64,000 nucleotides of DNA from contig NZ_AP019657.1 of assembly GCF_009938225.1 (NCBI RefSeq), positions 124,001-188,000 on the forward strand. Reading direction: 5' to 3'. Positions 61,978 to 64,000 of the stretch are shown here, in pieces. Below the pieces are notes generated by a model. That model did no database searches. It had not been told where the DNA came from and saw only the letters and a program-made list of their open reading frames with translations. The position numbers and the translations under genes were made by a program. This stretch comes from Vibrio ponticus. GTDB taxonomy: Bacteria; Pseudomonadota; Gammaproteobacteria; Enterobacterales; Vibrionaceae. Within the stretch, counting starts at the first letter, position 1. The number at the start of each line of letters is the position of its first letter.

Positions 61978-62115
61978 AACTTACACCTTACTCACCCAGA
62001 TTTTCCCTGTTCCTGGTGTCAGGTCGCTCAGCGCGAAACTACAAATTTGAGCGTAATAATCCCCTGACGCTTGGCGCCATACCTTTCTTTGCTAGTAGGA
62101 AGGGAGGGGGAATAT

Positions 62116-62138
62116 GCGGCGCACAGGGAGTGCGCCGC
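62116..62138 (-). other. Strong hairpin after the binding-protein gene
   Basis: GCGGCGCAC-N5-GTGCGCCGC, a perfect 9-bp GC-rich stem 11 bases after the binding-protein stop, without T tract. Like the malE-malF element, it probably protects the upstream mRNA and lowers permease expression. The remaining 130 bases to the permease hold small inverted repeats but no gene. Confidence 0.75.
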
Positions 62139-62149
62139 AAGATTGCCTA

Positions 62150-63832
62150 TTACTTAACTGGTTTTAGGTCCAGTACGTGTAGTAGACGCTCAGGGATACC
62201 AGCCCAAATGTTTGGACGGCCTTGAGGATTTTCTTCGTTCCACCAACCAGTAAAGCGAGTTGTGTTGTACTGGAACATGTATGCACCAGACATTACAGGA
62301 ATCGTTACTTGGTCAGCGGCGATGATAGCTTGGATGCCGTGAGCAATTTCAAGCTGTTCTTGCTTATCAGCCGTCTTGTAGAAGCCGTTTAGTAGCTTGT
62401 CTAGCTCTGCATTTTTGTAGTAGTGCAGTGCGAAACGAGGCATACCGTCGCCAGACTGAAGGTTTGAGTTGTAACCACTGTTCCAGTACATGTGTGGATC
62501 TGCACCGTGGAAGTAGTTGGTGTACGCAACGTCATACGTTGCTTCAAGCATCGCTTGGTTGTACACAGAGAAGTCTGGAGTACGAGCTTTAGCTTGGATG
62601 CCCACTTCAGCTAGCTGTTCAACAGCAAGTTGAACGGTGTTGTTGAAGTCAGTCCAACCGTTTGGCGATTGAATTAGAAGCTCAAAAGACTTACCTGATG
62701 GAGTGTCAACAAAGCCATCGTTGTTTACATCTTTGAAGCCAGCTTTTGCTAGTAGCGCTTTAGCACCTTCAACGTTGTACGTGTTGTAGCCTTTGTACTT
62801 GTTGTGAGTCTCTTCGTTTGACCAAGTCTTGAACGCGTAGCCTAGACCTGATGCGAAGTCATTGACTGTACCGCCGCCGTAGAATGCGATGTCGATAATA
62901 GTTTGACGGTCAAGAGCCATAGAGAATGCGCGACGGAAATCAACGTTAGTTAGCGCTTCATTCTTCGCTGCATCTGGGTGCTTGAAGTTAACTACAAATG
63001 CTTGAGTACCTGCTGGCGGGTACCAGTATTGGTGGTTAGGGCTCGCTGCTGCGTAAGTGCGGTCGATATCTGGAATGAATGAAGAAGTCCAGTCCATCTC
63101 ACCATTTACAACTTTACCAAGGAATTGGTCGTTGTTAGCGATTTGAGGTACACGTAGACAGTCAACATCTAGGTTGTCAGCATCCCAGTAGTTCGGGTTT
63201 TCACACTGAACGTAAAGTTGTGGAGTGAATGTCGCAATTTCAGTAAACGGACCGCTACCAACTGGGTTTTCGTTAGTAAAGGTTGAAGGATCTTTCACCT
63301 TGCTCCATACGTGCTCAGGCACTACAGGAACTTTTACGATTTCGTAAGCTGCGTTTGAGTTTGCTTCTTTGATATTGAACTTAACTTGGTAATCGTTCAA
63401 TTTCTCAACGCTAGTAACCCATGCATTGATACCGCTTTGGTCTAGCTCTGGTTTTTCTTTAACTAGATTGAATGAGTAGATAACGTCATCTGCGTCAAAC
63501 TTCTCACCGTCAGACCATTTCACACCTTTACGGATGTCAAATACAACACTTAGTAGGTCGTCAGCAATGGTGTAGTTCTCTGCTAGACGGAACACTGGCG
63601 TGTTGCCTTGCATCTCGTTGAACACTACTAGTGGCTCGTATAGGAAGTCCGTTGTAGTGTGCAGGTTCGTTGCACCTAGGTATGGGTTAAAGTTACGAAC
63701 AAAAGTTGTAAACTCTTTAGGGTGGATCGTTAGTTCATTTTTTTCTGCAGCCGTTGCTACTGAAGCAAAGCCAGTAGTTGCAGTTGCGATAATCGCTGTT
63801 GCTAGTGCAGTTTTTTTAATGTTGGCAAGCAT
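62150..63832 (-). CDS. Periplasmic chitin oligosaccharide-binding protein (CBP), SBP family 5
   Basis: 560 aa precursor with a signal peptide ending FASVATA before AEKNELTIHPKEF and no lipobox, so soluble in the periplasm. SBP_bac_5 fold of the DppA/OppA family. In V. cholerae the orthologue at this operon position binds (GlcNAc)n, feeds the importer and holds the sensor kinase ChiS inactive when empty; chiS lies upstream there and would be beyond the right edge here. AAGGA precedes the ATG. A structured region occupies the upstream DNA at 63900-63971. Confidence 0.92.
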   Translation of the reverse strand: MLANIKKTALATAIIATATTGFASVATAAEKNELTIHPKEFTTFVRNFNPYLGATNLHTTTDFLYEPLVVFNEMQGNTPVFRLAENYTIADDLLSVVFDIRKGVKWSDGEKFDADDVIYSFNLVKEKPELDQSGINAWVTSVEKLNDYQVKFNIKEANSNAAYEIVKVPVVPEHVWSKVKDPSTFTNENPVGSGPFTEIATFTPQLYVQCENPNYWDADNLDVDCLRVPQIANNDQFLGKVVNGEMDWTSSFIPDIDRTYAAASPNHQYWYPPAGTQAFVVNFKHPDAAKNEALTNVDFRRAFSMALDRQTIIDIAFYGGGTVNDFASGLGYAFKTWSNEETHNKYKGYNTYNVEGAKALLAKAGFKDVNNDGFVDTPSGKSFELLIQSPNGWTDFNNTVQLAVEQLAEVGIQAKARTPDFSVYNQAMLEATYDVAYTNYFHGADPHMYWNSGYNSNLQSGDGMPRFALHYYKNAELDKLLNGFYKTADKQEQLEIAHGIQAIIAADQVTIPVMSGAYMFQYNTTRFTGWWNEENPQGRPNIWAGIPERLLHVLDLKPVK

Positions 63833-63880
63833 AGCTGTTCCTTACTATTTGCTTTCATTTCACTAATGGATATGAATGTT

Positions 63881-63890
63881 ATCAATTGAT
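63881..63890. promoter_or_regulatory. Palindrome upstream of the chitin operon
   Basis: ATCAATTGAT, a perfect 10-base palindrome, flanked by TGTT and GAACA as outer half-sites. It lies 49-58 bases upstream of the binding-protein start. Possible operator, regulator not recognised. Confidence 0.35.
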
Positions 63891-63899
63891 GAACACTCT

Positions 63900-63971
63900 C
63901 TAAGGCCTACCTCTATAACAATGCTTAGCGTCGGAGGTAGATAAGCATCTTGAGTGGCCTGTAAGCCTTAG
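63900..63971 (-). ncRNA. Candidate pseudoknotted leader RNA of the chitin operon
   Basis: On the minus strand three perfect 7-bp arm pairs occur within 72 bases. P1 is CTAAGGC (63971-63965) with GCCTTAG (63906-63900). P2 is ATGCTTA (63948-63942) with TAAGCAT (63927-63921). P3 is CTACCTC (63940-63934) with GAGGTAG (63913-63907). P2 and P3 interleave as an H-type pseudoknot (loops of 1, 6 and 7 bases), and the 3' arms of P3 and P1 abut, allowing stacking. It ends 67 bases before the binding-protein ATG. No known riboswitch class is recognised. If transcription starts downstream of it, the repeats would instead be DNA operators. Confidence 0.45.
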
Positions 63972-64000
63972 GCACGGTTAAGAAAACACCGAATTAACTT

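Follow-up and report, generated by a model that had tools for sequence, protein, structure and literature searches.

What is the folded stretch between positions 63900 and 63971 of the window (the whole 64,000 nucleotides of Vibrio ponticus DNA analysed here), and what could be its role just ahead of a chitin transporter operon? The stretch, read on the minus strand, lies within the intergenic region of approximately 640 bp between a gene for a 1156-aa hybrid histidine kinase located beyond the window, upstream of cbp (HAMP, HisKA, HATPase, receiver, PAS), which we take to be ChiS, and cbp itself (62150–63832, minus strand). The latter encodes the periplasmic chitin-oligosaccharide binding protein (SBP_bac_5; 560 aa, start codon at 63832–63830) and opens an ABC transporter operon, which continues on the minus strand with two permeases and then two ATPases; by comparison with PMC5519180 and PMC1976385, it presumably corresponds to VC0620 of V. 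cholerae. A first-pass annotation had regarded the stretch as a riboswitch-like H-type pseudoknot closed by an outer helix. The comparative evidence points instead to a nested structure that is probably a 5'UTR docking site for the small RNA MicX on the chitin-oligosaccharide transporter mRNA.

The cbp leader and its place in the transcript

The three perfect 7-bp complementary pairs on which the annotation was founded are all present: an outer pair (CTAAGGC 63900–63906 / GCCTTAG 63965–63971), a second pair (CTACCTC 63907–63913 / GAGGTAG 63934–63940) and an apical pair (ATGCTTA 63921–63927 / TAAGCAT 63942–63948); the annotated distance of 67 bases to the cbp start codon is likewise correct. 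Folded alone, the stretch reached −24.3 kcal/mol (z −1.16) and 27 of 200 shuffled versions were equally stable; since the stability of the single sequence is thus unremarkable, the case for structure rests on comparison. On the minus strand, the leader begins with GGUGUUUUCUUAACC (63976–63990) and proceeds through the 5' strand of helix P1 (CUAAGGCUUAC, 63961–63971), the bulge AGGCCA (63955–63960), the 5' strand of helix P2 (CUC, 63952–63954), the apical hairpin with the arm pair AUGCUUA/UAAGCAU and CCUCC in its loop (63921–63948), the 3' strand of P2 (GAG, 63911–63913; shared with an arm of the annotated pseudoknot), the 3' strand of P1 (GUAGGCCUUAG, 63900–63910) and the P3 hairpin (GAGUGUUCAUCAAUUGAUAACAUUC, 63874–63898) to the segment with the Shine-Dalgarno (SD) sequence and the start codon (AAAUAGUAAGGAACAGCUAUGC, 63829–63850).

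According to the available part of PMC5519180, Pchb of V. cholerae has two starts, a basal long and a chitin-induced short one, the latter located 167 bp from the SlmA site and giving a strongly chitin-induced transcript; a predicted hairpin was somewhat inhibitory, and regulation via the 5'UTR was suggested. In both V. mimicus and V. ponticus, an SlmA-like site was picked out by eye; counting 167 bp from it leads to the very beginning of the conserved leader (approximately 63993). By this carry-over from V. cholerae, the induced start falls upstream of the element and not downstream of 63900, a position that would have spoken against the annotation, and the element is placed inside the 5'UTR of the cbp mRNA. 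As a test for an attenuator, intrinsic terminators were searched before cbp; there were no terminator-like sites on either strand of L002:2750–3520. The annotation had recognised no known class, in agreement with the search of positions 62000–64000 against Rfam 15, in which the best match (E 1.5) belonged to unrelated families. Upstream of the leader (L002:3015–3090 and relatives), TTTTNACG repeats at a spacing of approximately 10 bp precede a predicted −10 element; these repeats are perhaps binding sites of ChiS.

Covariation of the nested helices

DNA matches to the leader were obtained in 155 of 196 own-genus genomes, and 110 of these leaders were read, all of them anchored on the ribosome-binding site and 106 also on an inexact match to the bulge region. 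Alignment A1 contained 69 leaders, 41 of the 110 having been dropped for similarity beforehand; for alignment A2 and the covariance model R1 of the core, 24 of these 69 were first dropped for similarity. The structure scored in A1 comprised P1 (11 bp), P2 (4 bp), P3 (10 bp) and a helix between the leader 5' end and the SD (10 bp): 93.4% of the cells were paired, compared with 42–50% for slid versions of the structure, and 16 pairs changed on both sides; shuffled alignments averaged 5.4 such pairs, and none of 500 shuffles reached 16. The latter count alone is weak, since the structure slid by −1 column gave 15 such pairs, yet with 42.5% of the cells paired. Both-side changes in the 69 sequences were distributed over P1 (8 of 11 pairs), P2 (3 of 4) and P3 (5 of 10), whereas the helix of 5' end and SD exhibited conserved pairing within Vibrio (0 of 10).

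The outer 7-bp pair, annotated as closing the fold, is the lower part of the covarying 11-bp P1 helix. The apical arm ATGCTTA/TAAGCAT was examined by a swap test: in 40 sequences whose loop is of CCUCC type, cognate arms gave a mean energy of −7.74 versus −3.66 for exchanged arms, and none of 10,000 permutations was as good (for the V. ponticus hairpin alone, 10 of 39 exchanged arms folded equally well). Judged by this comparison, the apical hairpin is real as a class and, by the alignments as a whole, so is a conserved structured RNA element upstream of cbp.

The arm CTACCTC/GAGGTAG, in contrast, was not supported as a conserved helix. In relatives it shrinks to 4–5 bp around CCUC/GAGG (listings read by eye); it takes residues that are used by P1 and P2, and the fourth P2 pair is kept with changing type, being standard in 36 of the 40 sequences with a CCUCC-type loop and switching among U-A, A-U, C-G and G-U. 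V. ponticus itself has an A-A mismatch at this fourth pair, so that the pseudoknot is possible in its own sequence. According to the comparison, the form under selection is the nested P1–bulge–P2 structure, with CCUC/GAGG perhaps pairing transiently in its place. The covariation check across relatives that the annotation had proposed was therefore passed by P1 and the apical hairpin but not by this arm: what stands of the riboswitch-like leader is a conserved structured 5'UTR RNA with compensatory changes, while its pseudoknot form is not supported. A further pseudoknot, CACUC/GAGUG as alternative to P3, was rejected; 90.7% of the cells were paired, without a single pair changed on both sides, and all of 500 shuffles were as high in cells paired.

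The first leader bases GGUGUUUUCUUA (63976–63990) are strongly conserved and match the SD at 63836–63845 by complementarity, interrupted by a single bulge. Of 15 leaders, four (L139, L158, L161, L220) had a duplex energy better than that of 95% or more of the shuffles, two (L148, L151) fell behind most shuffles, and the remaining ones, V. ponticus included (124 of 500 shuffles as good), were unremarkable. The ribosome-binding site had predicted unpaired values of at most 0.09 in 6 of 18 leaders and of 0.99 in V. ponticus. On this mixed evidence, the leader 5' end may mask the SD in cis.

R1 gave one match each in 95 of 197 family genomes (3 of 13 genera). In V. ponticus it matched this place only (next match E 6), and all 20 outlying matches that were fetched were positioned directly upstream of cbp. 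The model misses leaders of g8 and other genera in which the proposed dock was seen by eye; its silence outside the own genus does not equal absence. GRCCA was present in 110 of 110 own-genus leaders recovered, a count favored by the anchoring on the bulge region, and in seven other numbered genera; the leaders read in g3, g5, g6, g8 and g13 keep it between two helices of quite different P1/P2 sequences. By eye, GRCCA between two helices was also recognised in Grimontia, Veronia, Enterovibrio sp. ZSDZ35 and a Photobacterium record (Veronia leaders L166 and L168: GGCCA present, CAGCUAUG absent); leader L144 keeps part of P1 and has no GRCCA. Inspection by eye revealed no such leader in V. superstes, V. 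comitans, V. breoganii, V. inusitatus and the related genomes G015, G102 and G185, in V. ulleungensis, qd031, G168, two g10 genomes and g12 (G206), in V. genomosp. F10, Enterovibrio baiacu and E. norvegicus, and in a Plesiomonas MAG, where another stem is found instead.

MicX as the probable partner of the bulge

In the accessible part of Davis and Waldor 2007 (PMC1976385), MicX is an sRNA from the malG 3' region of V. cholerae that lowers the mRNAs of vc0972 and vc0620 (the effect on vc0620 being 1.7-fold, in glucose); TargetRNA predicted its pairing with vc0620 over the SD and start codon, and only there. VC0972 is the chitoporin ChiP, as stated in the part of PMC8461464 at hand. MicX (Rfam RF01808) is encoded in the same genome as the leader investigated here (C2:1167098–1167286, minus strand, 119.9 bits). 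In the Rfam consensus structure, UUGGCC forms a six-base loop and CAUAGCU is unpaired: UGGYC of the loop is the complement of GRCCA in the leader bulge, CAUAGCU is complementary to the cbp start codon, and the stem below GGUUUGGYCG changes in sequence. The SD and start-codon segment of V. ponticus is matched by GCAUAGCUG and UUCCUUAC of MicX. Of these, GCAUAGCUG, complementary to the start-codon sequence CAGCUAUGC, occurs in most MicX genes printed (L198 has GUAUAGCUG), and the SD complement UUCCUUAC was carried by all of the first 31 MicX genes read but is absent from five later ones of the own genus (G163, G041, G070, G184, G093). The MicX genes read from g3, g8, g9 and g11 (L242–L259, L296–L310, L312–L316) are without UUCCUUAC and keep UUGGYC and CAUAGCUG. 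The SD complement, carried by some of the own-genus genes, that of V. ponticus included, thus seems to have been added within a section of this genus.

Both sites of the proposed loop–bulge contact are predicted to be open in most sequences folded. The predicted unpaired value of GRCCA exceeded 0.9 in 12 of 18 leaders (V. ponticus: 0.91) and ranged from 0.73 to 0.89 in three, while in L082, L263 and L271 the motif was no more than roughly half open (0.47, 0.48 and 0.58); UGGYC reached 0.84–0.99 in the six MicX folded. When the primer numbering of PMC1976385 (available part) is transferred to three close MicX genes, the hexaloop falls at nucleotides 218–223, CAUAGCUGG at 260–268 and UCCUUAC at 282–288. 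On this numbering, the deletion of nucleotides 196–263, after which MicX no longer regulates its targets according to the same source, takes out the hexaloop together with the beginning of CAUAGCUGG but spares the SD complement UCCUUAC; the deletion may also misfold MicX.

In the docking mechanism proposed, P1 and P2 would hold the GRCCA bulge open, and the MicX hexaloop UUGGYC would kiss it first, in a predicted helix of just 5 bp; the linear MicX segment would then cover the start codon and SD of cbp, with the result of lowered cbp translation. As both contacts follow the same order along both RNAs, a single continuous duplex would not arise; two separate short helices are expected, as in a kissing complex. 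Structure, complementarity, co-occurrence and trans covariation were shown here from the sequences, whereas the start site and the repression of vc0620 are carried over from V. cholerae.

Among 95 genomes of the own genus, MicX (E <1e-10) was found in 79 of 80 with the leader (R1) and in 0 of 15 without it (Fisher's exact 1e-16; the genomes are related, so that this is no count of independent events). The leaderless genomes contained cbp (E <1e-150) in 5 of 15 cases and weak MicX matches (E 7e-5 to 5e-4) in 6 of 15, at the level of secondary matches elsewhere. The sole exception of the 80, G182, has a leader with intact GGCCA (L109) and no MicX found; in an earlier set of 61 genomes, G053 (65% complete) presented a leader and G003 a weak leader DNA match without MicX. 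In g10, both R1 and MicX were found in 0 of 8 genomes and cbp in 7 of 8; the two leaders read there have no GRCCA in the place of the bulge, and one g10 genome (G212) contains a U-type motif match elsewhere. All six MicX-less genomes with the leader region read (G204, G224, G015, G185, G102, G168) are without CAGCUAUG at the start codon; against this observation stand the Veronia leaders, which have no CAGCUAUG either.

Trans covariation was assessed in 66 genomes for which leader and MicX had both been read (27 of the own genus, 20 of g8, 14 of g11, 2 of g3, 2 of g6 and 1 of g9). The leader/MicX base combinations were A/U in 12, A/C in 0, G/U in 9 and G/C in 45 genomes, that is, GACCA leaders co-occurred with UGGUC in 12 cases and with UGGCC in none (Fisher 6e-8, uncorrected for kinship; 8 of the 66 rows classified by eye from printed leaders). 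G-U is the expected intermediate between G-C and A-U, and 9 of the 66 leader–MicX pairs rely on it. Nine of the A-U pairs belong to g11 and three, with near-identical leaders, to g8 (G235, G259, G266). The A-U changes would thus have arisen in at least two lineages, and the complementarity to MicX appears to be kept in evolution by compensatory changes, as the absence of A/C from the 66 genomes indicates. Part of the g8 genomes was chosen because their MicX was of U type; of the 8 g8 genomes with the U-type MicX motif, 5 were paired with their leader and 3 (G215, G263, G273) left out. G211, of U type with two further differences, was paired, and G199 and G208 stand outside the comparison. The MicX loop segments of alignment A3 were located via the loop motif itself, up to one mismatch being allowed, at 76 of 77 loci, and the invariance of the loop there is in part a result of this selection.

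The leader of G199 contains GGCCA, and its sole Rfam MicX match (40.8 bits) is without both elements. As the docking reading predicts, a pattern search gave a second region with GCAUAGCUGG, then the GGUUUGGCCG hairpin and then a terminator-like stem, the elements being in reversed order. This locus (L330; G199:C2, approximately 524231–524244, minus strand), with CAUAGCUGG upstream of the GGUUUGGCCG hairpin and a terminator-like stem plus U-run, has the appearance of a rearranged MicX-like gene missed by the Rfam model. The same search revealed motif copies without CAUAGCUG in G003, G168, G199 and G207; the motif alone therefore occurs by chance.

Alternative readings and related circuits

A P1–P3 element that acts exclusively in cis (as a determinant of stability or a site for an RNase or protein), with MicX pairing solely with SD and start codon as published, would agree with the TargetRNA prediction in the available part of PMC1976385, and the loop/bulge match is a short one of 5 bp that was noticed after looking. 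We nevertheless consider this reading unlikely, given the trans covariation, the co-occurrence of leader and MicX, and the MicX genes of g3, g8, g9 and g11 that have no SD complement yet retain loop and CAUAGCUG. Still less probable is a metabolite riboswitch, in which the P1–bulge–P2 core would bind a chitin sugar and free or mask the ribosome-binding site. An invariant bulge between covarying helices, an apt gene and a possible cis anti-SD at the 5' end would suit such a sensor, as would the two transcripts, the suggested 5'UTR regulation and the somewhat inhibitory putative hairpin reported in the part of PMC5519180 consulted; however, R1 finds a single site per matching genome, located at cbp in every case checked, no Rfam class corresponds to the element, the invariant bulge complements the loop of a known repressor sRNA, and in the own genus the presence and absence of the leader coincide with those of MicX. 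The sensing of GlcNAc or GlcN-6-P suggested in the annotation is not supported, the pattern of occurrence being the sole evidence that bears on it. Hardly any weight can be given to a DNA-level site for ChiS, SlmA or CRP with an inverted repeat formed by chance: the element is indeed situated just downstream of a ChiS/SlmA-controlled promoter, but also downstream of the inferred induced start, and its helices change in sequence while being kept by compensation.

Docking of MicX thus remains the best explanation of an element for which no earlier description was found in the literature and Rfam searched. The main texts of the V. cholerae TIER-seq and RIL-seq papers contain no mention of vc0620 or chitin, the V. 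alginolyticus MicX proteomics paper none of chitin, and titles and abstract starts of the openly licensed literature describe no such dock for MicX with chitin or kissing. A decoy role may be added to docking by analogy, in that the chitin-induced leader would mainly soak up MicX and derepress chitoporin; we hold this to be quite possible, if short of an even chance. The idea is favored by the repression of both vc0972 (ChiP) and vc0620 by MicX (PMC1976385, PMC8461464), by the strong chitin induction of the short chb transcript beside the basal long one (PMC5519180) and by the ChiX/chb precedent of E. coli (PMC4098024), each as far as the parts of these sources at hand go. Against it, the accessible part of PMC1976385 reports no rise of MicX after deletion of vc0972, and the leader of chiP itself was not found by the primer-derived pattern, whose matches were instead the gene of a FadL-like outer-membrane protein and a coding region.

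Compared with ChiX of E. coli and Salmonella (PMC4098024, available part), likewise an sRNA that represses a chitoporin and pairs with chb mRNA, the sRNA here would be MicX, the site the structured 5'UTR at the head of an ABC transporter operon, and the decoy action is putative. It is tempting, if somewhat doubtful, to go further and assume that the Vibrionaceae independently evolved a ChiX-like chitin circuit from a co-evolved kissing pair of chitin-induced leader and maltose-locus sRNA: MicX would hold down chitoporin and transporter operon until the induced leader sponges it and the whole import path opens. Such a convergent decoy circuit becomes directly testable. With the MicX/vc0620 system of V. 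cholerae (PMC1976385, same part), the dock proposed here shares the sRNA family, the target gene and the pairing region at SD and start codon; pairing at this region alone was predicted there, whereas a structured dock and a bulge contact are proposed here. Vsr217, an sRNA from the Vibrio malK 5'UTR, likewise involves a conserved 5'UTR RNA of a sugar ABC transporter, but the malK UTR yields a trans-acting sRNA (PMC8265627, available part).

The docking reading would explain a V. cholerae leader whose suspected regulatory role had not been worked out before, and would provide MicX with a conserved recognition element and a role in chitin use. A two-site interaction of similar kind is that of OxyS and fhlA, in which a loop of the sRNA makes a kissing contact with a folded part of the mRNA and the sRNA also covers the ribosome-binding site. 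The RNAs are unrelated, and the contact proposed for MicX is one of loop to internal bulge, in a pair that can be traced, and its co-evolution read, across a bacterial family.
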